In this document: piece by piece, positions 11,772 through 46,173 of the stretch
Layout of the letters: each line of letters opens with the position of its first letter
Position numbering within the stretch: position 1 is the first letter of the stretch
Assembly: GCA_019671135.1 (NCBI GenBank)
Contig: JAHRHY010000004.1
Span: 1 to 64,000, forward strand
DNA length: 64,000 nt
Source of the DNA: Linnemannia hyalina
Taxonomy: Eukaryota > Mortierellomycota > Mortierellomycetes > Mortierellales > Mortierellaceae
Direction of reading: 5' to 3'
The notes under the pieces: model-generated
Told to the model about the DNA's origin: nothing
Databases searched by the model: none
The model's input: only the letters and a program-made list of their open reading frames with translations
Translations under genes and position numbers: made by a program

Positions 11772-11781
11772 TTTTTAAAAA
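11772..11781. terminator. TTTTTAAAAA after the 81-aa gene
   Basis: Perfect palindrome 5 bp after the 81-aa stop and 40 bp before the Rep-like start. It may end the small transcript rather than start the next, since the divergent starts in element A have no such motif. Confidence 0.4.
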
Positions 11782-11821
11782 GTTTGTAGTACATATCTCT
11801 GCAAACAGTAAGCTATTCAAC

Positions 11822-13474: not shown

Positions 13475-13490
13475 GAATGCTAATAGATAG

Positions 13491-13500
13491 TTTTTAAAAA
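13491..13500. terminator. TTTTTAAAAA between the converging B1 genes
   Basis: Perfect palindrome in the 37-bp gap between the stops of the Rep-like gene and the transposase. Confidence 0.5.
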
Positions 13501-13511
13501 TTACAATGGGC

Positions 13512-14771: not shown

Positions 14772-14789
14772 GACTGTAATTACAACCTG

Positions 14790-16928: not shown

Positions 16929-17379
16929 GGAGGCCATCCATGTTCGGCTCCACCAACCATAGACTACAGTATAAAAATATCTGTCAACACCTATTAAAAC
17001 AGTGTGTTCCTTGAGAGTACAACAAATCTCATCAGCTTTTTCCTTCCACCAGTCTCCATTTTCTACATTCACCACCACTACTTTGTAACATCATCTACTT
17101 TAGCTGAGAAAGCCTTGGACATGATCATCTCATATTGGATCCTGGATATTACAGATAGTAATTTCCTTTCCAATATGAGATGATCATGTCCAAGGCTTTC
17201 TCAGCTAAAGTAGATGATGTTACAAAGTAGTGGTGGTGAATGTAGAAAATGGAGACTGGTGGAAGGAAAAAGCTGATGAGATTTGTTGTACTCTCAAGGA
17301 ACACACTGTTTTAATAGGTGTTGACAGATATTTTTATACTGTAGTCTATGGTTGGTGGAGCCGAACATGGATGGCCTCC
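16929..17379. repeat. B hairpin cap, right end of B1
   Basis: 451 bp with 211-bp arms and the loop at 17140-17168. The loop reads in the same direction on the + strand as in the left cap, although the surrounding arms are inverted, so the two caps are loop-inverted relative to the element ends. Confidence 0.9.
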
Positions 17380-18131: not shown

Positions 18132-19236
18132 GTACTCCCTCGCCCAAAAAAAAGCGCTCCAACCTTTTTGTCCTGCCCGATTACCGATATGTAAAATATG
18201 TTTATGTTGATACTCTCTCCTTACGTTTTGCTCTTGTAATACTGCTAGATAACTATGTCCATTTGGATTCTTTTGCTTTTGTATATGTACTCTTTATAGA
18301 TGTATTTGTTATCTTTTTAAAAACTCCTTCCATAATTGTCTGTACAAATTCTTGCAACCTCCATTGGTATTCCACAACATATTCATCTATTTCGACCCAA
18401 GACGATTCCCATTTAGATGTGTATTTTGTTTTACAGATTGGCTTTGATATCCGCGACAAATATATTCCCCACGTTGACCTATTATGTATCTCTTATTTTA
18501 TAATCTACTCTTGATCTACTTTAATATTCCAATGCGTGGGTTGGGTACTCCCTCGCCCAAAAAAAAGCGCTCCAACCTTTTTGTCCTGCCCGATTACCGA
18601 TATGTAAAATATGTTTATGTTGATACTCTCTCCTTACGTTTTGCTCTTGTAATACTGCTAGATAACTATGTCCATTTGGATTCTTTTGCTTTTGTATATG
18701 TACTCTTTATAGATGTATTTGTTATCTTTTTAAAAACTCCTTCCATAATTGTCTGTACAAATTCTTGCAACCTCCATTGGTATTCCACAACATATTCATC
18801 TATTTCGACCCAAGACGATTCCCATTTAGATGTGTATTTTGTTTTACAGATTGGCTTTGATATCCGCGACAAATATATTCCCCACGTTGACCTATTATGT
18901 ATCTCTTATTTTATAATCTACTCTTGATCTACTTTAATATTCCAATGCGTGGGTTGGGTACTCCCTCGCCCAAAAAAAAGCGCTCCAACCTTTTTGTCCT
19001 GCCCGATTACCGATATGTAAAATATGTTTATGTTGATACTCTCTCCTTACGTTTTGCTCTTGTAATACTGCTAGATAACTATGTCCATTTGGATTCTTTT
19101 GCTTTTGTATATGTACTCTTTATAGATGTATTTGTTATCTTTTTAAAAACTCCTTCCATAATTGTCTGTACAAATTCTTGCAACCTCCATTGGTATTCCA
19201 CAACATATTCATCTATTTCGACCCAAGACGATTCCC
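18132..19236 (+). repeat. Array of three A terminal modules
   Basis: Modules at 18132-18410, 18545-18823 and 18958-19236 with 134-bp spacers (413-bp period). They are the same subtype (ACAAC variant) as the array at 5793. The extra unit relative to 5793-6484 shows that copy number changes at this end, as expected from unequal exchange. Confidence 0.88.
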
Positions 19237-20844
19237 AGTGTGGAGAGAAAAGGATTCACCAAATTCTCCAAACTCTTTTGCGATTCCATCATCTTTTGGG
19301 GTATATATAACTTTGCTGACGATACCACTAAAGGTACAGCAATTGGAAAGTACATTGCTGAACTGCGCGATGCATTTAACCACACCGATTTAAATGTGGA
19401 ATCTGTAAAGTTGGTCGATGCTAGGCAGGTTAAAATGGATGATAACTATTTTTCTCCGCGCATGGTCAAACGCCATAGAAAGTTGTTTGTTGGAAAAGAA
19501 TACCAACAGGGATTTATTGCCATCAAGGTTTCTTTAGATTTTTCCCGCGCAAAGATTGTTGTGCCAATTTTGACGAACATGTTGTCTAGCTTGAACGAGA
19601 GCGGCATTGCTTTACATGACATAGACTTTGCCTATGATTGTACACGTATTACCACACGACTGCACGTGGAGAGATTGCTAAAACAAACGAAAACTACAAA
19701 AATTGTCGATGATGTGGGAAGAGTAGGACATCATTGTATTTCATGGAGAGGTCGAAAAGGGGATACAAAGAATATCCGATATAAGGTGTATAACAAATTT
19801 GTCCAGATTTTGGAAAGTGCCGAGGTGCGAAAGAGCCTTGGTTCACGTTTGGAGGATTTGGTGGAGAAAGAAACAGCATTTGGACGACGAGTTAAAAAAT
19901 ATAAAAAGCATGGTTATAGTCGTATCGAGCTGACGTTTGAAGGTTCATCTTTGAGATCTCTTCAGTCATATCAAGACGAAATGGACAAGACAAAGAATCT
20001 CTTGAAGAAATGTAAAACATTTAAATGTTCCTTTGAGATGCAGTGGGAGGAACGTGCAAAATGCATTACCTCGATGGTGGCTGTACATTTTCCACATGAG
20101 AAACTGTTTGCTTATTGTCACTGGTGGAATTCGGTAACCTCTAAGAAGTATGGATATATGTGGCAAAACTTTAAGAACCCCGAGCTTATTACACTTTTGC
20201 TGGCTAACTATTCCTTTAACGATAGACCTATATATTTTGTGGAAGGACATGTAGAAGAGGTAAATGGGAAAGATGAAGTTATTTTGGGCGAAATAAGGAC
20301 ATTTAAGCGCGAGCCTGGATGTACTGCCATCACGCTAGTTGCTGGCTCGCAAAAAGGAATGTTTCCTTCGAGGGATGCATCTTCTAACGTCATTCGTAAA
20401 TTTAGCAAAGTTGGAATTGTGGAAGTTGACAACATCTCTATTGCCTGGCCAAAGCGTGTTCATAACAGGTATAGTGCCCCACTTGCAGATATCTTCGAAT
20501 ATGATGAAGATACAGTAGATACAAATGTATTACATCTGAAAACTATTCATGTTTCGATGTATACTGCAGCCGACCGAATTCTAAAGCCTGATGAGGAGTA
20601 TACCATTGTAGCGGCCGGTCTCAAAGAATTTCGTTCTGAACATCGTTGGCATTTTATTACAGCATGTGGCATAAAGGTGCGCGCAGGAAAATCGTTGGCA
20701 AAGATTTGGACACCATGGCGTGTGGAGCATCTTCAAGGTCTACAGAGAATTGGTAGTGTGAAAGGTGTGCCGTTCATGACATTTCGAGCGATTAGAGTGG
20801 TTAATTCACATAATATACTTGATATGAAGTGCGAGCGCGTTTGA
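19237..20844 (+). pseudogene. Rep-like gene lacking its first 33 codons (A3)
   Basis: Same junction with the module at codon 34 as in A2 (6485), and the same protein sequence. The identical breakpoint shows that A2 and A3 are tandem copies of one already-truncated unit, not two separate truncations. Confidence 0.82.
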
Positions 20845-23610: not shown

Positions 23611-23883
23611 ATGCCCAGGCCATCACGTTTAACTAAATCGCGCCAGCGGGAAGTTGTTGCCGATTTTATCTATGCAAAGAATCTGGAATTGTGTATGTTT
23701 ATCTATTTGGATGAATTTCTGGACTATCATCGTAATCTCTTTCCACAAGACGCCACTACATTTGGGACAAACGGCATAAAGAAACTATTGGAGGCATCCT
23801 ATCAACTCATCCGTGAGAAAATACGTAATGCGGGATTGCTTACAAATAAGGATGCTGGTGAATACATGCTTAGAAGAAACTGA
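23611..23883 (+). CDS. Small hypothetical protein, 90 aa (A4, diverged allele)
   Basis: Homologue of 2330-2602 with about fifteen amino-acid changes spread along the protein and the same length. The region from about 23550 to 24560, which includes this gene and the first part of the Rep-like gene, is diverged from the other A copies, while both sides are nearly identical to them. A4 thus looks like a mosaic. Confidence 0.65.
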   Translation: MPRPSRLTKSRQREVVADFIYAKNLELCMFIYLDEFLDYHRNLFPQDATTFGTNGIKKLLEASYQLIREKIRNAGLLTNKDAGEYMLRRN

Positions 23884-23929
23884 CAACCTAAATCTTACAC
23901 TTTTTAAAACCTTAAGTATACCTTTTATT

Positions 23930-24825
23930 ATGTCGCTAACAAAAGAATCTATTGTAAATACAGCTTTCAACGAAGTTTCCCACTTGCTGTCAAATGTGGG
24001 TAGCCTAAAGTCTGCTCCACCTGGAAGTATAGAGAGAAAAGGGTTTACTAAGTTTTCGAAGCTCTTCTGCGATTCCATCATCTTTTGGGGTATATATAAT
24101 TTTGCTGACAATTCCACTAAAGGTACGGCAATTGGAAAGTACATTGCGGAACTGCGCGATGCATTTAACCACATGGATTTAGATGTGGAATCCGTAAAGT
24201 TTTTGGATGCTAGGGCTGTTAAAATGGATGACAACTATTTTTCTGTACGCATGGTCAAACGCCATAGAAGGCTGTTTGTTGGAAAGGAATACCAGCATGG
24301 CTTTATTACCATTAAGGTTTCTCTAGATTTTTCACGAGCTAAGATTGTTGTGCCAATTTTGGACGGCATGTTGCCTATCTTGAACGAGAGTGGCATTGCT
24401 TTACATGACATAGACTTCGCCTATGATTGTACGCGTATTACCACACGGTTTTATGTAGAGAAATTACTAAAAGAAGGTAATAATACGGAAATTGTAGATG
24501 ATTTAGGAAGAGTTGGACATCATTGCATTTCATGGAGAAGTTTAGAAGATGATAGAAAGAATATCCGATATAAGGTGTATAACAAATTTGTTCAGATTTT
24601 GGAAAGTGCCGAGGTGCGAAAGAGCCTTGGTTCACGTTTGGAGGATTTGGTGGAGAAAGAAACAGCATTTGGACGACGAGTTAAAAAATATAAAAAGCAT
24701 GGTTATAGTCGTATCGAGCTGACGTTTGAAGGTTCATCTTTGAGATCTCTTCAGTCATATCAAGACGAAATGGACAAGACAAAGAATCTCTTGAAGAAAT
24801 GTAAAACATTTAAATGTTCCTTTGA
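23930..24825 (+). pseudogene. Rep-like gene, N-terminal part (A4), split by A5
   Basis: Starts MSLTKESIVN and is diverged from A1 up to about residue 210. From the block before KVYNK onward it is nearly identical. The acidic motif, YNK and RxE are all present. Element A5 interrupts it at TGA (24823-24825), in the codons after KCSFE; the rest is at 35517-36294. Confidence 0.88.
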
Positions 24826-25517
24826 GGGAATCGTCTTGGGTCGAAATAGATGAATATGTTATGGAATACCAATGGAGGTTGCAAGAATTTGTACAGACAA
24901 TTATGGAAGGAGTTTTTAAAAAGATAACAAATACATCTATAAAGAGTACATATACAAAAGCAAAAGAATCCAAATGGACATAGTTATCTAGCAGTATTAC
25001 AAGAGCAAAACGTAAGGAGAGAGTATCAACATAAACATATTTTACATATCGGTAATCGGGCAGGACAAAAAGGTTGGAGCGCTTTTTTTTGGGCGAGGGA
25101 GTACCCAACCCACGCATTGGAATATTAAAGTAGATCAAGAGTAGAATATAAAATAAGAGATACATAATAGGTCAACGTGGGGAATATATTTGTCGCGGAT
25201 ATCAAAGCCAATCTGTAAAACAAAATACACATCTAAATGGGAATCGTCTTGGGTCGAAATAGATGAATATGTTATGGAATACCAATGGAGGTTGCAAGAA
25301 TTTGTACAGACAATTATGGAAGGAGTTTTTAAAAAGATAACAAATACATCTATAAAGAGTACATATACAAAAGCAAAAGAATCCAAATGGACATAGTTAT
25401 CTAGCAGTATTACAAGAGCAAAACGTAAGGAGAGAGTATCAACATAAACATATTTTACATATCGGTAATCGGGCAGGACAAAAAGGTTGGAGCGCTTTTT
25501 TTTGGGCGAGGGAGTAC
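24826..25517 (-). repeat. Two A terminal modules, transposase end of A5
   Basis: Modules at 24826-25104 and 25239-25517 with a 134-bp spacer, in reverse orientation. As in the other copies, the doubled modules are on the transposase side and the single one is on the zinc-ribbon side. Confidence 0.88.
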
Positions 25518-25642
25518 ACCTGTTTTCTCGTCTTTTGTTAAGCTATGCCCACCATGTCTTAATATGACATATCTGGGGAATTCTAGGGAATAATTGACAT
25601 AATTACGTGTGTATAATCCCTATTTTTGCAGAAAACGACATT

Positions 25643-26923
25643 ATGGAGACTGATACCATCGTAAACCCTACGCCAAAGAAACTTGCACGGCTGCTTGATA
25701 ATCTGTTGGAGAACGAATGGGGATTTCTTGATGAACCGTGGCCAATGTGCCCAAAGGTCAAGACATTTCATCGTTCAGAGTTGAAACCAATTGCAAGAAT
25801 ACAGGATATGAAAAAGGTGTTGATGAAGAGACTTGGAGCCATACCAGTGTTTTTCTTTCTATCTACCATCTGGAGTAAACACTATTTCCCTGGTCCATAT
25901 AACGCACTTGAGAAAGGAATTGCATTCTTGTACTTTTTCGTCGCTGGAGAGACTATGGATTCCATGGCACAGTATATGCCAAAGTCCACATTCCATTTGA
26001 TATACAGCACATTCGTCAAGGTGGAACGTGCATTATTTGAGAAGGAGATTACACGCTGTTTTGCATCTATGTTCTCTTCGTTGGAAATTCGTATTCGAAC
26101 AGCCAATTGGAAAAATCCCCCAATGTTCAAGCATGTAACTCTCTACTTGGATGGTCATGACTCTCGAGCAACATATGGGGAAGATAAAGCAGCAATGTAT
26201 TCTTATAAGTTAAAGAAATCGGGTTTGAGAACGCAAGTGGCCATCGATGCCAATGGAATGGTTCTCTTTGTATCCAAATCAGCGTCATGTCGTGATAACA
26301 ACGATGGGAAAATGTTACAAGAGATGGGCATTGGCAAGAAGATGGACAGCATGGACTGTATTGCTCTCGATGGAGGATATACACAATACATTGGCGATAT
26401 TGTGGAAAAAGAAAAGTTGGACGAGCGTAACTTCTGTTTTCCCATCCGTAAGAAACGACTACAGCAACTCCACGAAGAGGAATCCAACTTTAATGCTATG
26501 TTTGGTGGATTTCGATCTACGTCAGAGGCTGTCTTTGGTGATCTCATGAAAACATTCGCCAAGTTTAATAACAAGGAGATTGTAAGAGTTGGATCCAAAA
26601 AGGAGTTTAATCTTACATTCCGCCTTTGTCTTCTGTTGCTAAATATTCGCAACTTTGTTAAAGCAGTGGACATCGAAGAGCAGCCACATCATCGTGGATG
26701 GATGGAAGAAGGAGTAGATTATCCACGAGAAAGGCAACTTGTCCCAGAGTTAACTCAAACCGTTACAGTACAAAACAAACTGGAAAATGGTCTTGAGTTA
26801 CAAAGAATGCAAGAGAAATTTGTAGGAATAGATGTTGCTTCAGATGATGATGATGAACAAACGTCAAATAAGGATGATGACGAGGAAATGTCAAACCACG
26901 AAGATGATAATACCAGTCTATAA
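25643..26923 (+). CDS. DDE transposase, family A, 426 aa (A5)
   Basis: Intact, with the same sequence as A3, including Ala200, and the catalytic residues at 170, 243 and 295. The start at 25643 is preceded by the usual subterminal region (25518-25642). It converges on the Rep-like gene with 35 bp between stops and the TTTTTAAAAA palindrome in the gap. A5 is the only A element here with full-length transposase, Rep-like and 90-aa genes within proven ends; only its zinc-ribbon gene is broken. Confidence 0.87.
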   Translation: METDTIVNPTPKKLARLLDNLLENEWGFLDEPWPMCPKVKTFHRSELKPIARIQDMKKVLMKRLGAIPVFFFLSTIWSKHYFPGPYNALEKGIAFLYFFVAGETMDSMAQYMPKSTFHLIYSTFVKVERALFEKEITRCFASMFSSLEIRIRTANWKNPPMFKHVTLYLDGHDSRATYGEDKAAMYSYKLKKSGLRTQVAIDANGMVLFVSKSASCRDNNDGKMLQEMGIGKKMDSMDCIALDGGYTQYIGDIVEKEKLDERNFCFPIRKKRLQQLHEEESNFNAMFGGFRSTSEAVFGDLMKTFAKFNNKEIVRVGSKKEFNLTFRLCLLLLNIRNFVKAVDIEEQPHHRGWMEEGVDYPRERQLVPELTQTVTVQNKLENGLELQRMQEKFVGIDVASDDDDEQTSNKDDDEEMSNHEDDNTSL

Positions 26924-26958
26924 TTAACAAAAGTCTTTCCAAAGTTTTTAAAAACCTC

Positions 26959-28662
26959 TCAAACGCGCTCGCACTTCATATCAAGTATATTATGTGAATT
27001 AACCACTCTAATCGCTCGAAATGTCATGAACGGCACACCTTTCACACTACCAATTCTCTGTAGACCTTGAAGATGCTCCACACGCCATGGTGTCCAAATC
27101 TTTGCCAACGATTTTCCTGCGCGCACCTTTATGCCACATGCTGTAATAAAATGCCAACGATGTTCAGAACGAAATTCTTTGAGACCGGCCGCTACAATGG
27201 TATACTCCTCATCAGGCTTTAGAATTCGGTCGGCTGCAGTATACATCGAAACATGAATAGTTTTCAGATGTAATACATTTGTATCTACTGTATCTTCATC
27301 ATATTCGAAGATATCTGCAAGTGGGGCACTATACCTGTTATGAACACGCTTTGGCCAGGCAATAGAGATGTTGTCAACTTCCACAATTCCAACTTTGCTA
27401 AATTTACGAATGACGTTAGAAGATGCATCCCTCGAAGGAAACATTCCTTTTTGCGAGCCAGCAACTAGCGTGATGGCAGTACATCCAGGCTCGCGCTTAA
27501 ATGTCCTTATTTCGCCCAAAATAACTTCATCTTTCCCATTTACCTCTTCTACATGTCCTTCCACAAAATATATAGGTCTATCGTTAAAGGAATAGTTAGC
27601 CAGCAAAAGTGTAATAAGCTCGGGGTTCTTAAAGTTTTGCCACATATATCCATACTTCTTAGAGGTTACCGAATTCCACCAGTGACAATAAGCAAACAGT
27701 TTCTCATGTGGAAAATGTACAGCCACCATCGAGGTAATGCATTTTGCACGTTCCTCCCACTGCATCTCAAAGGAACATTTAAATGTTTTACATTTCTTCA
27801 AGAGATTCTTTGTCTTGTCCATTTCGTCTTGATATGACTGAAGAGATCTCAAAGATGAACCTTCAAACGTCAGCTCGATACGACTATAACCATGCTTTTT
27901 ATATTTTTTAACTCGTCGTCCAAATGCTGTTTCTTTCTCCACCAAATCCTCCAAACGTGAACCAAGGCTCTTTCGCACCTCGGCACTTTCCAAAATCTGG
28001 ACAAATTTGTTATACACCTTATATCGGATATTCTTTGTATCCCCTTTTCGACCTCTCCATGAAATACAATGATGTCCTACTCTTCCCACATCATCGACAA
28101 TTTTTGTAGTTTTCGTTTGTTTTAGCAATCTCTCCACGTGCAGTCGTGTGGTAATACGTGTACAATCATAGGCAAAGTCTATGTCATGTAAAGCAATGCC
28201 GCTCTCGTTCAAGCTAGACAACATGTTCGTCAAAATTGGCACAACAATCTTTGCGCGGGAAAAATCTAAAGAAACCTTGATGGCAATAAATCCCTGTTGG
28301 TATTCTTTTCCAACAAACAACTTTCTATGGCGTTTGACCATGCGCGGAGAAAAATAGTTATCATCCATTTTAACCTGCCTAGCATCGACCAACTTTACAG
28401 ATTCCACATTTAAATCGGTGTGGTTAAATGCATCGCGCAGTTCAGCAATGTACTTTCCAATTGCTGTACCTTTAGTGGTATCGTCAGCAAAGTTATATAT
28501 ACCCCAAAAGATGATGGAATCGCAAAAGAGTTTGGAGAATTTGGTGAATCCTTTTCTCTCCACACTGCCAAATGGTGCTGACTGTAGATTACCCACATTT
28601 GACAGCAAATGGGAAATTTCGTTGATGGCTTTGTTTATCAGAGATTCTTTTGTTGGCGACAT
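26959..28662 (-). CDS. Rep-like protein, 567 aa (A5)
   Basis: Full-length copy that appears identical in protein to A1. It keeps Asp160/162/166, Tyr217-Asn-Lys219 and Arg261-x-Glu263. The start at 28662 is 45 bp after the 90-aa stop, on the same strand, so the two may be co-transcribed. Together with A1 and A7 it shows that the gene is kept open in three full-length copies. Confidence 0.72.
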   Translation of the reverse strand: MSPTKESLINKAINEISHLLSNVGNLQSAPFGSVERKGFTKFSKLFCDSIIFWGIYNFADDTTKGTAIGKYIAELRDAFNHTDLNVESVKLVDARQVKMDDNYFSPRMVKRHRKLFVGKEYQQGFIAIKVSLDFSRAKIVVPILTNMLSSLNESGIALHDIDFAYDCTRITTRLHVERLLKQTKTTKIVDDVGRVGHHCISWRGRKGDTKNIRYKVYNKFVQILESAEVRKSLGSRLEDLVEKETAFGRRVKKYKKHGYSRIELTFEGSSLRSLQSYQDEMDKTKNLLKKCKTFKCSFEMQWEERAKCITSMVAVHFPHEKLFAYCHWWNSVTSKKYGYMWQNFKNPELITLLLANYSFNDRPIYFVEGHVEEVNGKDEVILGEIRTFKREPGCTAITLVAGSQKGMFPSRDASSNVIRKFSKVGIVEVDNISIAWPKRVHNRYSAPLADIFEYDEDTVDTNVLHLKTIHVSMYTAADRILKPDEEYTIVAAGLKEFRSEHRWHFITACGIKVRAGKSLAKIWTPWRVEHLQGLQRIGSVKGVPFMTFRAIRVVNSHNILDMKCERV

Positions 28663-28707
28663 AATAAAAGGTATACTTAGGTTTTAAAAAGTCTATAATT
28701 TAGGTCG

Positions 28708-28980
28708 TCATTTTTTTCTAAGCATATATTCACCAGCGTCTTTCTCGGTAAGTAATCCATCTGCACGTATTTTGTCACGTAGGAGTTGATAAGATGCCTC
28801 TAATAACTTTTTTATGCCGTTAGTGCCAAATATAGTGGCATCTTGTGGAAAGAGGTTACGATGATGATCTAAAAATTCATCCAAATAGACAAACATACAC
28901 AATTCCAGATTCTTCTCATAAATAAAATCTGCAACAACTTCCTGCTGGCGTGCTTTGGTTAAACGTGTAGGCCTGGGCAT
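28708..28980 (-). CDS. Small hypothetical protein, 90 aa (A5)
   Basis: Same protein as the A1 copy (2330-2602). It is divergent to the zinc-ribbon gene, with 196 bp between starts, and is followed by the TTTTTAAAA motif before the Rep-like start. No family recognised. Confidence 0.65.
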   Translation of the reverse strand: MPRPTRLTKARQQEVVADFIYEKNLELCMFVYLDEFLDHHRNLFPQDATIFGTNGIKKLLEASYQLLRDKIRADGLLTEKDAGEYMLRKK

Positions 28981-29176
28981 AATATATTTGCGGCGATAAG
29001 ACGTCTAAATGGTCATCCCCCTATATACCTATTTGTCAATTACTCCCTTGAATAGATACAACTTGACATCTATATTAGATATTGTTGTGTATGCCCTCAA
29101 ACACAAACATTGAGAGAAATATTCCCGGGAAAAAACGTGGTATATCAACTATCAAGAGATCACCATTCCGCCTAAT

Positions 29177-29337
29177 ATGCCAAAAAGGATTTGCAACAGG
29201 TGTGACCAAAAGAAGCCTTTATATGATTTCTACGATGATTCCAGAAATACATGTAAGGAATGCAAGATAAAGTCTTCCAAGGAGAGCTATCAGGCAAAAA
29301 AGAATGGTGGAAAGCATGTGAAATCTGGGAGATGTAA
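29177..29337 (+). pseudogene. Zinc-ribbon gene, 5' part (A5), split by C1
   Basis: Codons for both CxxC pairs and the basic linker up to GRCK, with one change in the ribbon (Leu for Ser at residue 15). C1 is inserted after TAA (29335-29337). The remaining 232 bases (34790-35021) complete exactly 130 codons plus stop. Confidence 0.9.
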
Positions 29338-29832
29338 GCGGCCCCTTCATGTGCAGAGGATATAAAAAGGCATATAAAAAATATCCAAAGTCCAAGGAAC
29401 GGAGTGTTGACTTCCATAACTGGCATATCTCTTCATAGTGGGCAACAGAACACAGAATAAAATAGCAATAGACAGCACAAGAATTTTTAAAATGTAATCT
29501 CTCCCCTGTATTTCACGACAAAGATACAGTTGAGAATACAAGTGCTTTAGATGATCACATACAAGAACTACTCTGTCGAATCTTGCAGTGAGGGTTACAG
29601 GTTAATAGTAGATGGACATATTCAAGAGTTTGGTGTGCGAAAAATAAGAAGACTTTGTTGTTTGGAGAATAGGTTGGTGTTTAGTAGGATAGTTAAACAA
29701 AAAATGTTACAATGGTTGTCTTATATGCTTGGTATCATATATACATTCTCCTCTAATGGACGCGGTGGATATCGTCAAGATCTGCAGAGATGTAACAAAC
29801 ACCATATGATAATTTGGACTTGAAAGGCCTCC
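29338..29832 (+). repeat. C terminal direct repeat, left (C1)
   Basis: 495 bp, in the same orientation as 34292-34786 and apparently identical to it. Its own two tips (GCGGCC... and ...GGCCTCC) are an imperfect inverted pair, so it may be a MITE-like unit. It contains a short TTTTTAAAA motif but no convincing gene. Confidence 0.85.
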
Positions 29833-29955
29833 TAGGTGGAAGTGTCGAAGACATGTTACATTTTTAAAAAGTTCATGCTATATATACAACCACAAATGCC
29901 AACTGTTGACAATTGGATAGTTTTTAAAATATCTACTCTTCATCTGTCTCAACAA

Positions 29956-32166
29956 CTACCAAAACTTTACATCTGGAGAGTACAATTTAGGCAATTCCTC
30001 GATCGTGAACCCCATGGCAATTAACTTCTGCTTTTGTTTGTTGTTGGTAAATTTGTCTCGACTATAGTTACTGTCACCGTTTGCAGGTATCTTATACAGC
30101 AGTCCAACAATAATGTCCTCTTCGTACCTCTTGAGCAGATGACATCCGTCGAAAAGGTAGTTGGTTGCATATTCATGCTTCTTGTCAAACGAACATGTTG
30201 TCCATTTAATTTCGTCTTTATCTATGACGATTATACCCGAAGAGCTTTTATCTTTAGGGTACCTTTTCCACATAACATCCTCAGCATCTTTATCATCCTC
30301 AGCATCTTTATCATCTTCAGCATCGTTATCACCCTCAGCATCTTTGTCATCTTCAGCATCTTTATCACCCACCGCATCTTTGTCATCCTCAGCATCTTTA
30401 TCGCCCTCAGCATCTTTATCATCCTCACATGTGCTCTCATCTTTCTGTGGCAAGCTTTGCTTATGCTCATGCGGTTTAAATCCCATAGCAAACAACTTCT
30501 CTTTTTCCTTCTGGCTAAGAGAATGACACTCTACATTCTCTGCAGCAATATGGTCATCAGTCATCAAGCCGATTACAGTGTCTTTTTTGCGCATCTTGAG
30601 AATGTGCATTCCATTTACAAGTACATTCTCGGAATATTCCAAGTACTTGTTAAGTTTTTTCCATATCACCTTGGATTTATCTGTTGGTCCTTCTACTGGT
30701 ACTTCTTCTTCTACTTCGATCTCCTCGTTGAAAAGCGTCTTTCTCTCTTCATCAGACAATGGTTGAAGTTTCATCTTGCTAAGCATGGAGCGTTCCAAGA
30801 TATCCAACTCTGGAACATCACCGACACCGCGCAGAGCATCAAGCGTAAACAGGCCAACGTATGTATTCTTTCCAGATAGCCTGACAATGTACTTGCCATT
30901 CATCGTAAACTTAGTTGCATACTCAAGCATGTCGTTATTAGGATGAATCATCCATCCTCTGTCCTTCGCACGTGCTATGTCTTTCTCTGATCTAATGTTA
31001 TGCACCGTTGTGGCCAGTGCAAATGTATGTTCATCTTTTCCATCCTTAGAAACGTCTACATTAGAAGATGGCTCTGCATTTTTGGGCATCTCTGAATGCC
31101 TTTTCTTTCGAGAAGTCTTCTTCTCATCATCCTTAGATGACTTTTTATGAGATAGTTTTTCATCAGGGTTATCCTTAGAGGTATCATCTCCAGATTCTAC
31201 ATCAGGTCTGTTATTGGACTTGCCATCATCAGAGTCTTTATCATCAGGGGAATCATCGTCAGAGCCAGCATCATCAGACGTATCACCATCATCTGTATCA
31301 TCGTCAGAATTCTCATCAGCAGAAGACTCTTCTATTTTTTCTACATCAGCAGGAGTTGCCTCTTGGAGTCCCATCTTTTGTAATATACGTACCTCTTTGT
31401 CAGATAATTTCGGTACAGGAAGATTTTTCCCCATGAGCTCAGGTGGACACAATACAATGTAGAGGTCCTTTTCCTTCAGCTTAATAATGTACTTGCCATT
31501 TACAGTATAGTTTTTTGCATACAGGAAAGCTGGATTAGTTGCATAACGCATCCATATGCCTGTATTAGCGAGTGGTACATTTTTCTTGGACGTTATGTCA
31601 ACTACCTTTGGACTCAACGGAAAGGAGACGGCAATTATATCTTCTTCATCATCATCGGACGGCTCCTCATCCGATGACTCCTGCTTGTTTCTCTTTCGCT
31701 TCTTTGGTTCTTCATCCTCGGAAGTCATATCATCATCTGAAGGGACAAACTCAGGAGTATGTGTCTTCTTGGTTATCTTGGAAGACTTGGTACGCTTGTT
31801 GGCAGGTGCCTTATTGTTACTGCTTTTCATATGACCTTTATGCTGCTCTCGATGACGTCCACAGTATGTTTCACCAAGTTTGGCTACACTACCACAATTA
31901 GCGCCCTTAATGGTTGTGCCTTGACACTTGCGCGCAGGATCGTGGACATAACAATGCATGCCTTCATCATCAACTTCCTTCATGCATTTGCGCTTGGACT
32001 TGGTGCACTTTGCACCACAAAAGTAGTATCTCTCTACTCCCTCATCCTCATCAAGCGCCTTAAAGATCTTATTTGCATCTTTCTTGGTAAACTCCACTCC
32101 CTTCTTAGAAGAAAATGTCTCGAAGGCCTTGGTGATGAGCTCGATTGTAAGCTGAACGTACTGCAT
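29956..32166 (-). CDS. Acidic multi-domain protein, 736 aa (C1)
   Basis: The N-terminus (1-45) is helical. Two Cys/His clusters follow: Cys50, Cys54, Cys61, Cys72, His75, and then Cys81, Cys91, Cys102, His105, of the type CxGTTxKGxxC...YCxxH. A basic patch and a nuclear-signal-like KKRKRNK (155-161) come next. Then four diverged copies of one 70-residue domain (about 204-268, 404-466, 501-563, 655-728), each with a YAxNxxxNGKYIxxLxxKD-like strand pair and an L-x-MGL/F helix. Asp/Glu/Ser-rich linkers lie between them, including a DAEDDK repeat at about 581-640. The style resembles giant-virus proteins, but no family can be named. It differs from the C2 copy by one residue (Pro for Ser at 361). 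Confidence 0.75.
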   Translation of the reverse strand: MQYVQLTIELITKAFETFSSKKGVEFTKKDANKIFKALDEDEGVERYYFCGAKCTKSKRKCMKEVDDEGMHCYVHDPARKCQGTTIKGANCGSVAKLGETYCGRHREQHKGHMKSSNNKAPANKRTKSSKITKKTHTPEFVPSDDDMTSEDEEPKKRKRNKQESSDEEPSDDDEEDIIAVSFPLSPKVVDITSKKNVPLANTGIWMRYATNPAFLYAKNYTVNGKYIIKLKEKDLYIVLCPPELMGKNLPVPKLSDKEVRILQKMGLQEATPADVEKIEESSADENSDDDTDDGDTSDDAGSDDDSPDDKDSDDGKSNNRPDVESGDDTSKDNPDEKLSHKKSSKDDEKKTSRKKRHSEMPKNAEPSSNVDVSKDGKDEHTFALATTVHNIRSEKDIARAKDRGWMIHPNNDMLEYATKFTMNGKYIVRLSGKNTYVGLFTLDALRGVGDVPELDILERSMLSKMKLQPLSDEERKTLFNEEIEVEEEVPVEGPTDKSKVIWKKLNKYLEYSENVLVNGMHILKMRKKDTVIGLMTDDHIAAENVECHSLSQKEKEKLFAMGFKPHEHKQSLPQKDESTCEDDKDAEGDKDAEDDKDAVGDKDAEDDKDAEGDNDAEDDKDAEDDKDAEDVMWKRYPKDKSSSGIIVIDKDEIKWTTCSFDKKHEYATNYLFDGCHLLKRYEEDIIVGLLYKIPANGDSNYSRDKFTNNKQKQKLIAMGFTIEELPKLYSPDVKFW
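30280..30435. repeat. In-frame minisatellite in the 736-aa gene (DAEDDK)
   Basis: An 18-bp unit (GATGCTGAGGATGACAAA on the coding strand and close variants) is repeated about eight times. It keeps the frame and so lengthens an acidic linker. The equivalent stretch in C2 is at about 49879-50034. Confidence 0.8.
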
Positions 32167-32840
32167 GTTTTTGGATATGAACGATATAGATTGTACTTGT
32201 GATATGGTGGGTGTGAATGACTTTTCAGTTTATGTGTGGTAGATTGCAGCTGCTTAGTACACTGATATAAAGAATTGCAATAAAAGATGGTTGTATAGGT
32301 ATGGATGGTTGTATAGATATGGATAATGGTTGGTTGGTTACTAGATAAGATAAAGATTAAGCAAGAGGGAAGTGGAGTCCTTTATTTATACTAATTCATG
32401 GGACACTGCCACACTGGATATTAATAGCGCTTGCTTATTAACACTGCTTGGCGCTTAGTAACAAAAGAGTTTTAAAAAGGCATCTAAGTGGTTAATAACG
32501 TAGTGTTCCTCGTATGACGTAGATCTTGCTTATTAAGACTGCTTGGCGTTAAAGACGGGGTTTAAAAATGGTTAAGAATGTAGTATTCTTTTATGACGTA
32601 GGTTTGTACATGTGTTTATGTATTCTTTTATGGCGTAGGTTTGTACATGTGTTTATCCTCTTTGTTAAATAAAAAGGAATGTTGTAGAATAGCATAGAAT
32701 AGCATCCGATCTACTACAATAATACCATGACTTTTAATAATAGATACCGGTGCATATTAGCGTCTAGGCAGTTAATACCGTATCTCAACGCTGACTAAAT
32801 AGGCTATGTATGTCTATTCTTTTAAAAACCTGCAATAAGT
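32167..32840 (-). promoter_or_regulatory. Intergenic region and probable promoter of the 736-aa gene (C1)
   Basis: 674 bp with no gene. A strong TATA box (TATAAATAAA on the minus strand, 32381-32390) lies about 215 bp before the 736-aa start, followed by a C/A-rich leader of the kind seen in highly expressed fungal genes. Further upstream, a 36-bp direct repeat (32583-32618 and 32620-32655) and several TTTTAAAA motifs lie between this promoter and the transposase stop. Confidence 0.55.
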
Positions 32841-34130
32841 CTACAAATTACCATTAACATCCATTTGTCGCTTCGTACCTCTAAGCTCAATGGAAAGACC
32901 GGGTTGCATTATTACTGCTTGATCCATTGGTGTGTCCTCATCAACATTAACATCAACATCACCATGAAGATTAATACCAAGAAATTTGTTCTGGAGTTGT
33001 GCCATTGTATTTCCATCCTCCACTAGCGCACCAACATCAACATATCCCATTGGTTGCTCAACGTCGTTCTCTGTTGTCGGATACTCGAATCCTTCGCGAA
33101 GCCAAGCTGTATGAATTGGTTCTGCAGAAATCTTCAACAAAGCAACCATCTTTTTCATGTTTAAGAGTAACAAAGATAACTTCAACTGCAAATTATATGT
33201 TTGTTTCTTATCCACCAACACAGGAGTACGGTTGTTGTGTTTCTCAAATGTGGAACCAAGGTCTGCAAACAGAGATTCCATCTGCGAGCGGAAACTACCA
33301 AAGGTGGTATTGTATAACGCTTCTTCCTGTGTAAGTTCCTTGTTCTTCTGTTTACGGTATGGATGAGCGAAATTTTGGATTCTAAGAGTGTCAGACTCAT
33401 CTATAAGCCTCCTTAAGAACTGTGGATACCCTCCATCGAGAGCAATGCAATCCATCTCATGCACTCTCTTGTCCAACTTCATCGTTAGCAGCATTGTTCC
33501 ATCAGCATTGTTCTTGCAAGATGCAGATTTGGAGACAAATAAAGCCATGCCATTACAATCCATTGCTACCTGTGTGCGTAATCCTGACTTTTTCAGCTTG
33601 TAAGAGTACATATCAGCACTACTCTCACCTTTGTATGTTGCTCTTGTATCATGACCATCAAGATGCAATGTAACATGCTTAAATAATGGAGGATTCTTTT
33701 CCTTTGCAGACAAAAGGCGTATTTTAATTGTGGAGAACATTGTTGCAATACAGTTGGTGATGTACTTGTTGTGCAAAGTATATTCTTTCTTATAAAACAC
33801 AGAGTGCATTGCATGAAAACTACTTTTTGGCATGTGTGGTTCCATTGCTTCCATAGACAGTCCTTTGACAAGATGATAGAGCATTAAAAGACCTTTCTCC
33901 ACTTCTTTGTATGGACCAGGATACTTAACCTTTGGCCAGATGTCAACAAGAAAGAAGTACACTGGAATAGGACCAAGGCGTCGATTTAGGGTTTCTTTTA
34001 TTTCTGGCATATACCCAATTTCCTTGCTTACAGTACGATGATTATTACGTGGTGTAATTGTTGGCCATCCAGCGTTGAGGAAAGTCCAATGGTCATCAAG
34101 CAGTTGTTGGAAGTGTTTTGTTAGATCCAT
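32841..34130 (-). CDS. DDE transposase, family C, 429 aa (C1)
   Basis: Related to the A and B enzymes over its whole length. It has the same N-terminal block (HWTFLNAGWP), a helix-turn-helix-like segment MPKSSFHAMHSVF (100-112), Asp158 (LHLDGHD), Asp232 (CIALDGGY) and Glu285 (RSQMESLF). Start MDLTKHF at 34130 aligns with the other families; the frame is open 30 codons upstream. It differs from C2 at one residue (Gln for Lys near position 8). It is preceded by a TTTTTTAAAAA stretch near 34180. Confidence 0.85.
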   Translation of the reverse strand: MDLTKHFQQLLDDHWTFLNAGWPTITPRNNHRTVSKEIGYMPEIKETLNRRLGPIPVYFFLVDIWPKVKYPGPYKEVEKGLLMLYHLVKGLSMEAMEPHMPKSSFHAMHSVFYKKEYTLHNKYITNCIATMFSTIKIRLLSAKEKNPPLFKHVTLHLDGHDTRATYKGESSADMYSYKLKKSGLRTQVAMDCNGMALFVSKSASCKNNADGTMLLTMKLDKRVHEMDCIALDGGYPQFLRRLIDESDTLRIQNFAHPYRKQKNKELTQEEALYNTTFGSFRSQMESLFADLGSTFEKHNNRTPVLVDKKQTYNLQLKLSLLLLNMKKMVALLKISAEPIHTAWLREGFEYPTTENDVEQPMGYVDVGALVEDGNTMAQLQNKFLGINLHGDVDVNVDEDTPMDQAVIMQPGLSIELRGTKRQMDVNGNL

Positions 34131-34291
34131 AATAATATTTATGTATTGGATTGTCATGACGTTAACCAACAATAACAATTTTTTAAAAAGGCTTATACTT
34201 AACTGTATACACAACAGCATGTAGGATGGTATCTATCATACAGCAAGCACATAGTTGAGAATACAAATATATTTTTATATTTTATTCGGTA

Positions 34292-34786
34292 GCGGCCCCT
34301 TCATGTGCAGAGGATATAAAAAGGCATATAAAAAATATCCAAAGTCCAAGGAACGGAGTGTTGACTTCCATAACTGGCATATCTCTTCATAGTGGGCAAC
34401 AGAACACAGAATAAAATAGCAATAGACAGCACAAGAATTTTTAAAATGTAATCTCTCCCCTGTATTTCACGACAAAGATACAGTTGAGAATACAAGTGCT
34501 TTAGATGATCACATACAAGAACTACTCTGTCGAATCTTGCAGTGAGGGTTACAGGTTAATAGTAGATGGACATATTCAAGAGTTTGGTGTGCGAAAAATA
34601 AGAAGACTTTGTTGTTTGGAGAATAGGTTGGTGTTTAGTAGGATAGTTAAACAAAAAATGTTACAATGGTTGTCTTATATGCTTGGTATCATATATACAT
34701 TCTCCTCTAATGGACGCGGTGGATATCGTCAAGATCTGCAGAGATGTAACAAACACCATATGATAATTTGGACTTGAAAGGCCTCC
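34292..34786 (+). repeat. C terminal direct repeat, right (C1)
   Basis: Second 495-bp copy in the same orientation as 29338-29832. In C2 a patch of about 140 bp near the GGCCTCC side is different, yet is the same at both C2 ends. Confidence 0.85.
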
Positions 34787-35021
34787 TAAGAAAGATGAGG
34801 ATGTGCAACAATCCGATGATGATTTACAGTATGAGAATAAGAAGTTCAAGAAACGTGTCAGAAAATTGGAGAAAGAAATGGATAAGATGAACCAAATTAT
34901 TTCCCAGCAGAAGAGGGAGATTTATATAATAAATGCCTTGATCAAAGGATTTGCCAGTGGTCTCATGGTAAATCAAGAGGAAGAATTAGATACAGCCAAT
35001 GTTGTTGAGCTATCGGAATAA
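34787..35021 (+). pseudogene. Zinc-ribbon gene, 3' part (A5)
   Basis: Starts with the TAA target duplication and then continues in frame from KDEDVQQ to the stop, coding the coiled-coil helix and acidic tail. One change in the helix (Phe for Leu). Confidence 0.9.
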
Positions 35022-35516
35022 ACTTTTAAAATGTGCAATATATATACCTTCCATAAGTAGTATTATGGGAATTATTCCCAGGGAATTCATGTACTGTCAA
35101 CCAAGCTGGTACCATTATCATCATGATGTATATGCATGAGATTCACCGGGGACACACGTATAAATGCTATATATGTTATATGAACGTAGGTGTTTTAAAA
35201 TGGTGGGCATAGCTTAACAAAAGACGAGAAAACAGGTGTACTCCCTCGCCCAAAAAAAAGCGCTCCAACCTTTTTGTCCTGCCCGATTACCGATATGTAA
35301 AATATGTTTATGTTGATACTCTCTCCTTACGTTTTGCTCTTGTAATACTGCTAGATAACTATGTCCATTTGGATTCTTTTGCTTTTGTATATGTACTCTT
35401 TATAGATGTATTTGTTATCTTTTTAAAAACTCCTTCCATAATTGTCTGTACAAATTCTTGCAACCTCCATTGGTATTCCATAACATATTCATCTATTTCG
35501 ACCCAAGACGATTCCC
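35022..35516 (+). repeat. Subterminal region and single A module, zinc-ribbon end of A5
   Basis: 35022-35238 is the subterminal sequence (a copy in inverse is at 1525-1740), and 35239-35516 is the terminal module. No gene. Confidence 0.85.
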
Positions 35517-36294
35517 TGAGATGCAGTGGGAGGAACGTGCAAAATGCATTACCTCGATGGTGGCTGTACATTTTCCACATGAGAAACTGTTTGCTTATTG
35601 TCACTGGTGGAATTCGGTAACCTCTAAGAAGTATGGATATATGTGGCAAAACTTTAAGAACCCCTTTAACGATAGACCTATATACTTTGTGGAAGGACAT
35701 GTAAAAGAGGTAAATGGGAAAGAGAAAGTTATTTTGGGCGAAATAAGGACATTTAAGCGCGAGCCTGGATGTACTGCCATTACACTAGTTGCTGGCTCGC
35801 AAAAAGGAATGTTTCCTTCAAGGGATGCATCTCCTAATGTCATTCGTAAATTTAGCAAAGTTGGAATTGTGGAAGTTGACAACATCTCTATTGCCTGGCC
35901 AAAGCGTGTTCATAACAGGTATAGTGCCCCACTTGCAGATATCTTCGAATATGATGAAGATACAGTAGACACAAATGTATTACATCTGAAAACTATTCAT
36001 GTTTCGATGTATACTGCAGCCCACCAAATTTTAGAGCCTGATGAAGAGTATACCATTGTGGCGGCCGGTCTCAAAGAATTTCGTTCTGAACGTCGTTGGC
36101 ATTTTATTACAGCATGTGGCATAAAGGTGCGCGAAGGAAAATCGTTGGCAAAGATTTGGAGACCATGGCGTGTGGAGCATCTTCAAGGTCTACAGAGAAT
36201 TGGTAGTGTGAAAGGTGTGCCGTTCATGACATTTCGAGCGATTAGAGTGGTTAATTCACATAATATACTTGATATGAAGTGCGAGCGCGTTTGA
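35517..36294 (+). pseudogene. Rep-like gene, C-terminal part (A4)
   Basis: Resumes after A5 at TGA and runs to the native stop. Apart from the split, it has a 33-bp in-frame deletion that removes ELITLLLANYS from a block conserved between families A and B, so this allele was probably already defective. It also has several substitutions not seen in A1 (for example AHQILEP and RSERRW). Confidence 0.88.
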
Positions 36295-41212: not shown

Positions 41213-42916
41213 TCAAACGCGCTCGCACTTCATATCGTCCTCGCCATGAATACGAACCTTTTTTACTGCACGAAATGTCATCAACGGTACACCTTCGACT
41301 CTGCCAATTCTCTGTAGACCTTGAAGATGCTCCACACGCCATGGTGTCCAAATCTTTGCCAACGATTTTCCTGCGCGCACCTTTATGCCACATGCTGTAA
41401 TAAAATGCCAACGATGTTCAGAACGAAATTCTTTGAGACCGGCCGCTACAATGGTATACTCTTCATCAGGCTTTAGAATTCGGTCGGCTGCAGTATACAT
41501 CGAAACATGAATAGTTTTCAGATGTAATACATTTGTATCTACTGTATCTTCATCATATTCGAAGATATCTGCAAGTGGGGCACTATATCTGTTATGAACA
41601 CGCTTTGGCCAGGCAATAGAGATGTTGTCAACTTCCACAATTCCAACTTTGCTAAATTTACGAATGACGTTAGAAGATGCATCCCTCGAAGGAAACATTC
41701 CTTTTTGCGAGCCAGCAACTAGCGTGATGGCAGTACATCCAGGCTCGCGCTTAAATGTCCTTATTTCGCCCAAAATAACTTTCTCTTTCCCATTTACCTC
41801 TTCTACATGTCCTTCCACAAAGTATATAGGTCTATTGTTAAAGGAATAGTTAGCCAGCAAAAGTGTAATAAGCTCGGGGTTCTTAAAGTTTTGCCACATA
41901 TATCCATACTTCTTAGAGGTTACCGAATTCCACCAGTGACAATAAGCAAACAGTTTCTCATGTGGAAAATGTACAGCCACCATCGAGGTAATGCATTTTG
42001 CACGTTCCTCCCACTGCATCTCAAAGGAACATTTAAATGTTTTACATTTCTTCAAGAGATTCTTTGTCTTGTCCATTTCGTCTTGATATGACTGAAGAGA
42101 TCTCAAAGATGAACCTTCAAACGTCAGCTCGATACGACTATAACCATGCTTTTTATATTTTTTAACTCGTCGTCCAAATGCTGTTTCTTTCTCCACCAAA
42201 TCCTCCAAACGTGAACCAAGGCTCTTTCGCACCTCGGCACTTTCCAAAATCTGGACAAATTTGTTATACACCTTATATCGGATATTCTTTGTATCCCCTT
42301 TTCGACCTCTCCATGAAATACAATGATGTCCTACTCTTCCCACATCATCGACAATTTTTGTAGTTTTCGTTTGTTTTAGCAATCTCTCCACGTGCAGTCG
42401 TGTGGTAATACGCGTACAATCATAGGCAAAGTCTATGTCATGTAAAGCAATGCCGCTCTCGTTCAAGCTAGACAACATGTTCGCCAAAATTGGCACAACA
42501 ATCTTTGCACGGGAAAAATCTAAAGAAACCTTGATGGCAATAAATCCCTGTTGGTATTCTTTTCCAACAAACAACTTTCTATGGCGTTTGACCATGCGCG
42601 GAGAAAAATAGTTATCATCCATTTTAACCTGCCTAGCATCGACCAACTTTACAGATTCCACAATTAAATCGGTGTGGTTAAATGCATCGCGCAGTTCAGC
42701 AATGTACTTTCCAATTGCTGTACCTTTAGTGGTATCGTCAGCAAAGTTATATATACCCCAAAAGATGATGGAATCGCAAAAGAGTTTGGAGAATTTGGTG
42801 AATCCTTTTCTCTCCACACTGCCAAATGGTGCTGACTGTAGATTACCCACATTTGACAGCAAATGGGAAATTTCGTTGATGGCTTTGTTTATCAGAGATT
42901 CTTTTGTTGGCGACAT
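41213..42916 (-). CDS. Rep-like protein, 567 aa (A7)
   Basis: Full length with all motifs. It differs from A1 by scattered changes (Ile for Asn at 86, Ala for Thr at 145, NNRPIY) and by a cluster in the last 30 residues (RVEGVPLMTFRAVKKV, then HGEDDMKCERV) that is shared with the A8 fragment. The open frame runs upstream into the B2 hairpin, but the native ATG is at 42916. B2 lies 17 bp upstream and has probably removed its promoter or co-transcribed 90-aa gene. Confidence 0.72.
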   Translation of the reverse strand: MSPTKESLINKAINEISHLLSNVGNLQSAPFGSVERKGFTKFSKLFCDSIIFWGIYNFADDTTKGTAIGKYIAELRDAFNHTDLIVESVKLVDARQVKMDDNYFSPRMVKRHRKLFVGKEYQQGFIAIKVSLDFSRAKIVVPILANMLSSLNESGIALHDIDFAYDCTRITTRLHVERLLKQTKTTKIVDDVGRVGHHCISWRGRKGDTKNIRYKVYNKFVQILESAEVRKSLGSRLEDLVEKETAFGRRVKKYKKHGYSRIELTFEGSSLRSLQSYQDEMDKTKNLLKKCKTFKCSFEMQWEERAKCITSMVAVHFPHEKLFAYCHWWNSVTSKKYGYMWQNFKNPELITLLLANYSFNNRPIYFVEGHVEEVNGKEKVILGEIRTFKREPGCTAITLVAGSQKGMFPSRDASSNVIRKFSKVGIVEVDNISIAWPKRVHNRYSAPLADIFEYDEDTVDTNVLHLKTIHVSMYTAADRILKPDEEYTIVAAGLKEFRSEHRWHFITACGIKVRAGKSLAKIWTPWRVEHLQGLQRIGRVEGVPLMTFRAVKKVRIHGEDDMKCERV

Positions 42917-42933
42917 AATAAAAGGTATACTTA

Positions 42934-43384
42934 GGAGGCCATCCATGTTCGGCTCCACCAACCATAGACTACAGTATAAAAATATCTGTCAACACCTATT
43001 AAAACAGTGTGTTCCTTGAGAGTACAACAAATCTCATCAGCTTTTTCCTTCCACCAGTCTCCATTTTCTACATTCACCACCACTACTTTGTAACATCATC
43101 TACTTTAGCTGAGAAAGCCTTGGACATGATCATCTCATATTGGAAAGGAAATTACTATCTGTAATATCAAGGATCCAATATGAGATGATCATGTCCAAGG
43201 CTTTCTCAGCTAAAGTAGATGATGTTACAAAGTAGTGGTGGTGAATGTAGAAAATGGAGACTGGTGGAAGGAAAAAGCTGATGAGATTTGTTGTACTCTC
43301 AAGGAACACACTGTTTTAATAGGTGTTGACAGATATTTTTATACTGTAGTCTATGGTTGGTGGAGCCGAACATGGATGGCCTCC
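42934..43384. repeat. B hairpin cap, left end of B2
   Basis: 451 bp with the loop at 43145-43173, which reads AAGGAAATTA, the reverse of the B1 left loop, and has one substitution. Confidence 0.9.
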
Positions 43385-45517: not shown

Positions 45518-46012
45518 GGAGGCCTTTCAAGTCCAAATTATCATATGGTGTTTGTTACATCTCTGCAGATCTTGACGATATCCACCGCGTCCATTAGAGG
45601 AGAGTGTATGTATGATATCAACCATTTAAAACAACCACTGTAACATTCCTTGCGCGATTATCCTACTAAACACAACTACATTCTCCAAACAACAAAGTCT
45701 TCTTATTTTTCGCTCACCAATATCTTGAATGTGTTCATCTACTATTAAACTGTAACCCTCACTGCAAGATTCGACAGAGTAGTTCTTGTATGTGATCATC
45801 TAAAGCACTTGTATTCTCAACTGTATCTTTGTCGTGAAATACAGGGGAGAGATTACATTTTAAAAATTCTTGTGCTGTCTATTGCTATTTTATTCTGTGT
45901 TCTGTTGCCCACTATGAAGAGATATGCCAGTTATGGAAGTCAACACTCCGTTCCTTGGACTTTGGATATTTTTTATATGCCTTTTTATATCCTCTGCACA
46001 TGAAGGGGCCGC
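45518..46012 (-). repeat. C terminal direct repeat, left (C2)
   Basis: 495 bp. From about 45600 to 45740 it differs from the C1 repeats at many positions (for example CATTCCTTGCGCG where C1 has the complement of a T-rich stretch), but this patch is the same in 50472-50966. Confidence 0.85.
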
Positions 46013-46173
46013 TACCGAATAAAATATAAAAATATATTTGTATTCTCAACTATGTGCTTGCTGTATGATAGATACCATCCTACATGCTGTTGTGTATACA
46101 GTTAAGTATAAGCCTTTTTAAAAAATTGTTATTGTTGGTTAACGTCATGACAATCCAATACATAAATATTATT

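Follow-up and report, generated by a model that had tools for sequence, protein, structure and literature searches.

The PHIS (PIF/Harbinger-like) transposons, which include PIF/Harbinger, Pangu, Nuwa, ISL2EU and Spy, are characterized by a DDE_Tnp_4-type transposase and a two-gene layout. According to excerpts of PMC4482050, four groups have a second protein of the Myb/SANT kind, ISL2EU has a YqaJ exonuclease protein in its place, Spy has none, and the role of the second protein is unknown; an excerpt of PMC12730594 adds that some fungal Harbingers are paired with TET/JBP. The active site of the Rep_trans proteins (PF02486; pT181 RepC, RstA and ICEBs1 NicK) is composed of motif N′ (D), motif I (RxD), motif II (T/SxY/ExG), motif III (YxKxxE) and motif IV (W/LxRxE), and the Phage_CRI proteins carry motifs similar to these (excerpts of PMC5714925). 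The excerpted part of PMC13107129 (2026) presents Rep_trans as apparently confined to bacteria, with distant kin in archaeal viruses and plasmids. The stretch of DNA analysed here, referred to as the window, comprises 64,000 nucleotides at the end of contig C33 (JAHRHY010000004.1) in the 51.5-Mb genome of the soil fungus Linnemannia hyalina. This subtelomere, densely filled with nested repeats, contains two DDE transposons, elements A and B, in which the transposase gene is accompanied by a gene for a Rep-like protein, and a Rep-less relative, element C. The best reading of the sequences is that A and B represent a PHIS-type transposon with a partner resembling the phage gene II protein (G2P) instead of a Myb/SANT or YqaJ one. 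No G2P/Rep_trans-type protein in a eukaryotic transposon was found in the titles and abstracts of the open-licence literature, a scope outside which Repbase reports lie.

An earlier, sequence-only reading of the window had described a Harbinger-like transposase convergent with a protein of 550-567 aa, and this layout was confirmed, as were the full-length open Rep-like open reading frames (ORFs) that it listed, three in A and two in B (Table 1). The transposases of A, B and C match PF13359 (DDE_Tnp_4) above the cut-off, as expected of PHIS elements, and their D, D, E triad was located by eye after alignment with each other and with the separate transposase at 62634-63725. Terminal inverted repeats are present in A and B and, in common with PIF/Harbinger, Pangu and Nuwa, so is a 3-bp target-site duplication (TSD). 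The duplications claimed in the earlier reading were recovered in part: TGA flanks the interval 24826-35516, AAA flanks B and TAA flanks C, and identical 3-bp flanks were seen in 5 of the 12 A cores with both outer termini recognised (12 of 40 cores, from the window and 20 genome loci, some overlapping), but the other 7 have no matching TSD. The interval 24826-35516 is indeed element A, but it consists of one A copy with a nested 5449-bp C and is itself inserted in the Rep-like gene of a different A copy. Three features set A and B apart from described elements. Their TSDs (TGA, ACA, AAA, ATA and AAT in A) are not the TWA of PIF/Harbinger proper, their terminal inverted repeats extend, unlike those of PHIS, from hundreds to about 2600 bp and contain tandem repeats, and their Rep-like proteins have no Myb/SANT match, whereas the second protein of PIF/Harbinger is Myb/SANT.

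The linkage between the Rep-like gene and the transposase gene is maintained across the genome, in which all copy numbers are lower bounds. Among the Rep rows that reach the C-terminus (49 of 79 for A, 40 of 48 for B), the 3′ end faces a DDE end in all but two cases for each element (47 copies of A, 38 of B), with a gap of 31-47 bp in A (41 bp in 42 of the 47 linked copies) and of 43 bp in all 38 linked B copies. At C33:51629, a B gene scored as unlinked has in fact a DDE piece facing it in the window, at 50878-51588. Adjacent locus tags for the two genes (BGZ52_005334/005333 and BGZ67_010185/010186) were found in Haplosporangium bisporale and Mortierella alpina, and 11 Rep and DDE matches come from the same source and from contigs of equal size, compared with a mean of 1.0 (maximum 5) at shifted sizes; the best 120 of 223 DDE matches were used, and the relative P0100 was left out as no contig is given for it. 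Moreover, the protein distances of the two families correlate closely in a mirror-tree comparison (r = 0.944, 12 pairs), a value reached in none of 9999 permutations. The pairs were A, B and 10 foreign ones, two joined by adjacent tags and eight by equal contig size and source, while P0068 (contig size the same as that of P0048) and P0089-P0121 (whose sources differ) were excluded. Purifying selection acts on both genes, with a ratio of nonsynonymous to synonymous substitution rates (dN/dS) of 0.25-0.38 for the A Rep gene (five comparisons), 0.09 for that of B (one comparison) and 0.09-0.21 for the DDE gene (five comparisons). Linkage, co-varying distances and purifying selection together make the Rep-DDE pair look like an old unit.

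The search of 5.8 billion proteins returned 102 relatives of the Rep-like protein, none with a precomputed Pfam domain, and a second search with P0100 as query returned 14, of which 11 were new; the protein searches score only candidates that share words with the query (7999, 6035 and 6496 scored). Most relatives are metagenome proteins, and the label "fungal" rests on the named ones, which belong to the Mortierellomycota (Mortierella, Linnemannia, Podila, Actinomortierella, Haplosporangium and Gryganskiella) and, in one case, to the Mucorales (Apophysomyces). When 105 family proteins were aligned, gapped rows being left out of the counts, the predicted catalytic positions were found to be near-invariant, even in members only 27% identical to A: D48 is conserved in 92/92, D162 in 103/105, D166 in 104/105, Y217 in 104/104, K219 in 98/105, R261 in 103/104 and E263 in 104/104. 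The residues and the order of motifs that the earlier reading had assigned to the Rep_trans/RstA type are therefore present, but the spacing of motifs I-III and III-IV is nearer to G2P than to RstA. The median N′-I, I-III and K-to-R distances are 112/55/43 in the Rep-like family, 121/53/31 in 19 G2P proteins and 116/64/13 in 11 RstA proteins. The motif blocks, described before as the best-conserved parts between A and B, are well conserved (48-57% identity, compared with 37% in the N-terminal and 32% in the C-terminal part), but the top block is FAYCHWW...LLANYSF (65%, residues 316-365), which is located outside the nickase motifs, in a C-terminal domain. The large extra C-terminal region of the Rep-like protein is itself conserved.

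Profile comparisons point in the same direction. When 70 members were scanned against the PHROGs library, P0087 (Apophysomyces) gave the only match to phrog_702 (1.6e-6, residues 133-288), the next-best value among the best 25 of 62 families being E = 0.0058. Phrog_702 is the G2P family, since the gene II protein (pII) of phage I2-2 matches it at 1.7e-94, and this pII is Phage_CRI (PF05144) in Pfam. The G2P set for further tests contained 19 proteins from viral contigs and bacterial genomes (PF05144 occurs in 11 of 398 sampled bacterial genomes), near-duplicates and a partial M13 protein included. The hhalign comparison of the 105 family proteins with this set gave a score of 35.0; the alignment spans 113 columns and brings motifs I, III and IV of the two sets into line. 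This score was reached by none of 294 column-shuffled controls (maximum 26.9) and none of 298 block-shuffled controls (maximum 31.7), 6 and 2 of the 300 runs each being unscored; reversed G2P scored 16.2, and for the accepted relation of G2P with RstA this test gave 50.8. With a G2P hidden Markov model (HMM), 57 of the 105 family proteins outscored all 1050 shuffled sequences, and the A protein of the window obtained 9.6 bits. The same residues in motifs N′, I, III and IV and the similar spacing add to this profile similarity, and common descent of the Rep-like protein with G2P appears very probable; the gene II protein of filamentous phages (Phage_CRI, PF05144) would be its nearest relative found. 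The Rep-like protein differs from G2P in the absence of a PF05144 match, in a longer III-IV insertion and another C-terminal half, in its fungal nuclear host and in its linkage to a DDE gene. From Rep_trans, with which it has the motif scheme in common (excerpt of PMC5714925), it is separated by the lack of a significant profile match and by a median K-to-R distance of 43 versus 13. RstA/Rep_trans was rejected as the nearest relative after hhalign and HMM tests with 11 phage proteins, and a search of the genome with PF02486, a family that the earlier reading had named for comparison, matched nothing. The proposed coupling of a DDE transposon to a Rep-type protein thus stands on the motifs, the phrog_702 match, the profile tests and the linkage, but with G2P rather than RstA as the relative. 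Single-sequence and viral comparisons gave little: no motif-spanning BLASTP alignment of P0087 with phage I2-2 pII, no tblastn match of P0100 and P0087 in phages, two tblastn matches of P0087 in plasmids (E of 3 and 6), no match of the family profile in viral contigs, and one match of P0100 to PDB sequences, an unrelated protein (E = 0.89).

Element C provides a comparison from within the same subtelomere. Its transposase is 47% identical to that of A and 53% to that of B, its TSDs are TAA and TAT, and both copies in the window, the nested one and an inverted one near 45518-50967, lack the Rep-like gene and carry instead a 736-aa acidic protein with a Cys-rich start and no Pfam match over the cut-off. 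The abundance of Rep-less C makes the Rep-like protein seem dispensable for transposition. C suggests that Rep-free transposition is possible, unless the Rep-like protein acts in trans, and this possibility favours a separable Rep function. A recent gain of Rep in A and B, argued from the Rep-less C, was rejected, because in a DDE tree of 109 tips the Rep-linked genes are distributed over the clade of A, that of B and the outer chromodomain clade, with C inside, so that loss is simpler; most likely, Rep was lost in C. As 10 of the 109 tips were recognised as Rep-linked, the absence of Rep linkage from all 19 C-clade tips is weak evidence if taken alone. Many of the distant DDE relatives (among P0189-P0233) carry a chromodomain (PF00385), a possible targeting module.

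With moderate confidence, A and B are interpreted as two lineages of a fungal PHIS DDE transposon whose accessory is a G2P-related tyrosine nickase. This interpretation is supported by the element ends, TSDs, open genes, purifying selection, co-inheritance, similarity to G2P and conservation of the predicted catalytic positions. The DDE enzyme would insert the element by cut-and-paste with a 3-bp duplication, as is suggested by its family and by the duplications themselves. The Rep-like protein would nick the element sequence-specifically via Tyr217, with a metal held by D48, D162 and E263, and the nick would leave a 3′-OH priming host DNA synthesis. Such synthesis would copy the element or an excised form of it, which would raise the copy number without dependence on repair of the excision gap. 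That the Rep-like protein replicates the element, considered as a step of its own, is the role we favour and is plausible, although we stop just short of calling it probable. The fuller proposal, in which a nuclear transposon is also a replicon, moved by the DDE enzyme and copied as an episome through rolling-circle synthesis by the nickase, with B maybe hairpin-primed, is more tentative. Spiroplasma plectrovirus R8A2B (SpV1) is also a replicon whose record annotates a putative transposase, of the IS30 family, and another of its ORFs is presumably a Rep_trans initiator; unlike A and B, it is a phage of a wall-less bacterium and its DDE family is a different one. Helitrons are, as A and B would be, eukaryotic transposons with a rolling-circle-type nuclease, and they encode an HUH nuclease and a helicase and no DDE enzyme. 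They are also described as lacking target duplications (excerpt of PMC5714925).

Several results weigh against this interpretation. The analysis identified neither an origin nor a circle junction or an episome, and the Rep-less C is at least as numerous as A (at least 92 C rows, compared with 74 rows of the A DDE gene whose identity is 77% or above). At the motif level, the Glu of motif III (YxKxxE) is Gln in 101 of 105 family proteins, and motif II as written is not evident in the family alignment. The own probability of hhalign for the G2P comparison is 13%, with an E of 0.0021 for one comparison, and smaller alignments gave E values of 0.05-0.1. In the reverse test, in which the G2P proteins were scored with the family HMM, only 1 of 19 was separated, and the B protein of the window obtained 2.7 bits with the G2P HMM, which is below the shuffled maximum of 5.0. 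The hhalign and HMM tests with RstA/Rep_trans were not significant (HMM, 1 of 105 above the shuffled maximum). When 70 members were compared with Pfam, the best E was 0.003, to an unrelated family, and PF02486 and PF05144 were absent from the best 25 of 49 families; neither of the two matched P0087, P0082, P0086, P0088 or P0078 at E up to 10. The family profile had no match among PDB sequences.

The main rival to replication of the element is help with end processing, in which the nickase serves transposition by nicking or opening the long termini, rich in repeats or palindromic as they are, or the subtelomeric target and so aids the DDE enzyme. This role, which we consider unlikely on balance but worth taking seriously, is consistent with the co-evolution of the Rep and DDE proteins, with the palindromic ends of B, which could fold as hairpins, and with the location of most Rep genes near contig ends (on the 13 contigs of known length, 34 of the 40 A genes and 13 of the 15 B genes have an end less than 100 kb away; 13 of 50 contigs were used, and 9 A and 25 B Rep rows were left out). 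However, C has its own TSDs without Rep, even if an action of Rep in trans is conceivable, no palindrome was seen in the A ends tested, and other PHIS elements have a DNA-binding partner or none (excerpt of PMC4482050). It is improbable that the protein descends from a G2P-type nickase and is now a mere DNA-binding accessory replacing the Myb/SANT protein of other PHIS elements. The second protein of most PHIS groups is described as DNA-binding, with an unknown role (excerpt of PMC4482050), and the conserved C-terminal region would fit such a function, but catalytic positions that stay near-invariant down to 27% identity are unexpected in a dead enzyme. Even less probable is that the G2P/Rep_trans likeness reflects convergence or chance in an unrelated fungal transposon protein: the lack of a usable Pfam match among 70 members, the low absolute scores and the weak reverse HMM speak for it, but the correct order and spacing of six residues, the PHROG library match, and the failure of all 592 shuffled profiles and of 1050 shuffled sequences to equal the family profile and 57 of its 105 proteins, respectively, speak against it. 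Finally, the idea that Rep hitch-hikes as an element of its own or as a captured gene, with no lasting tie to the transposon, for which the Rep-less C could be cited, is already contradicted by the convergent layout with its near-constant gap, the pairs matched across species, the correlation of their distances and purifying selection, and is hardly credible.

The element A unit, about 5240 bp long, matches further copies as well, and the inverted repeat at its termini measures about 320 bp and is frequently amplified, in steps of roughly 413 bp. Two small A ORFs recur in the genome, the 130-aa one being complete in 17 of 20 A loci and the 90-aa one being present in 20 of 20 (85-100% identity), and neither has a Pfam match over the cut-off or a Myb/SANT match. 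At locus L060 (contig C22), synonymous divergence (dS) from window 2648-5703 is 0.18 for Rep and 0.038 for the DDE gene of the same element; owing to this mismatch, A elements look like mosaics produced by recombination between subfamilies. Head-to-tail A units on contig C16 (L047, L048 and L050) have a common junction that joins the A right end to A position 1637, with CAT as flank. They were rejected as rolling-circle concatemers and not counted as evidence of replication, since nested insertion and unequal crossing-over suffice to explain the junction. The terminal inverted repeats of B, about 2.59 kb long and 99.4% identical, contain 133-bp tandem arrays, and the B tip aligns with its own reverse complement with 438 identities, 11 mismatches and 4 gaps. 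The Rep-like proteins of B and A are 38% identical. A near-identical 451-bp palindrome stands alone at 62114-62564, like an insertion of a miniature inverted-repeat transposable element, with the TSD CAA, and another B-tip palindrome (55466-55823) overlaps the 5′ side of a Ty3-type retrotransposon fragment with RNase H, integrase and chromodomain (55674-58127). The separate Harbinger-type transposase (PF13359, 2.7e-20) adjoins a 369-aa ORF at 61073-62182. This ORF, taken earlier for the Myb-like partner in an element at 60871, had no Pfam match up to E = 10, and the comparison drawn from it was not confirmed. The remaining 6 A and 2 B Rep genes on the contigs of known length form a single internal cluster on C12. 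In the middle of this 3.8-Mb contig, at 1.86-1.94 Mb, copies of A, B and C form a large cluster, which may mark a former chromosome end or a centromere-like site or may result from a misjoin. The 10-bp period of the telomere-like array that opens the window is unusual for a fungus.

Table 1. Coordinates of the features in the window, by element (TSD, target-site duplication).
Feature	Position	Strand	Remarks
Element A, named copy	24826-35516	-	termini start GGGAATCG...; nested C inside; sits in Rep-like ORF of another A
TSD, left	24823-24825		TGA
TSD, right	35517-35519		TGA
A DDE transposase	25607-26923	+	438 aa; triad by eye D182, D255, E307; near-identical copy matches PF13359
A Rep-like (G2P-like) protein	26959-28662	-	567 aa; open
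Host A Rep-like ORF, 5′ part	23813-24825	+	split by insertion
Host A Rep-like ORF, 3′ part	35520-36294	+	after insertion
Element A, further copy	1246-6484	+	flanks ATA/AGT, not matching
A Rep-like protein	2648-4351	+	part of copy 1246-6484; search query
A DDE transposase	4387-5703	-	of copy 1246-6484; PF13359 1.4e-11
A ORF, 130 aa	1741-2133	-	Cys-rich (zinc-finger-like by eye); coiled coil
A ORF, 90 aa	2330-2602	+
A Rep-like ORF, third full-length	41213-42961	-
A Rep-like ORF, 5′-truncated	6410-8092
A Rep-like ORF, 5′-truncated	19162-20844
Element B	8785-17379	+	8595 bp; TSD AAA; sits in an A DDE gene
B left tip	8785-9235		451-bp near-perfect palindrome
B Rep-like protein	11822-13474	+	550 aa; from ATG
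B DDE transposase	13512-14825	-	437 aa; PF13359 2.4e-7
B right tip	16929-17379		451-bp palindrome
B Rep-like protein, second	51626-53278	-	from ATG; 98% identical to first
Element C, nested	29338-34786	-	5449 bp; TSD TAA 29335-29337/34787-34789, read by eye
C ORF, 736 aa	29956-32166
C DDE transposase	32841-34220
Telomere-like array	1-572		10-bp unit AAACCCTAAA; 57 copies

The presence of a Rep-like second protein sharpens the question of what the second protein does in PHIS transposons and, because its catalytic residues are predicted, makes its role testable by inactivation of single residues. An old and widespread fungal lineage of the Rep_trans superfamily would extend this superfamily to eukaryotes. 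If the transposon is also a replicon, the element would both jump and copy itself and would be a eukaryotic counterpart of the integrating filamentous phages. Its initiator would then be the first of the Rep_trans/G2P type known from a eukaryote, and its source may have been a phage or plasmid of the endobacteria of the fungus.

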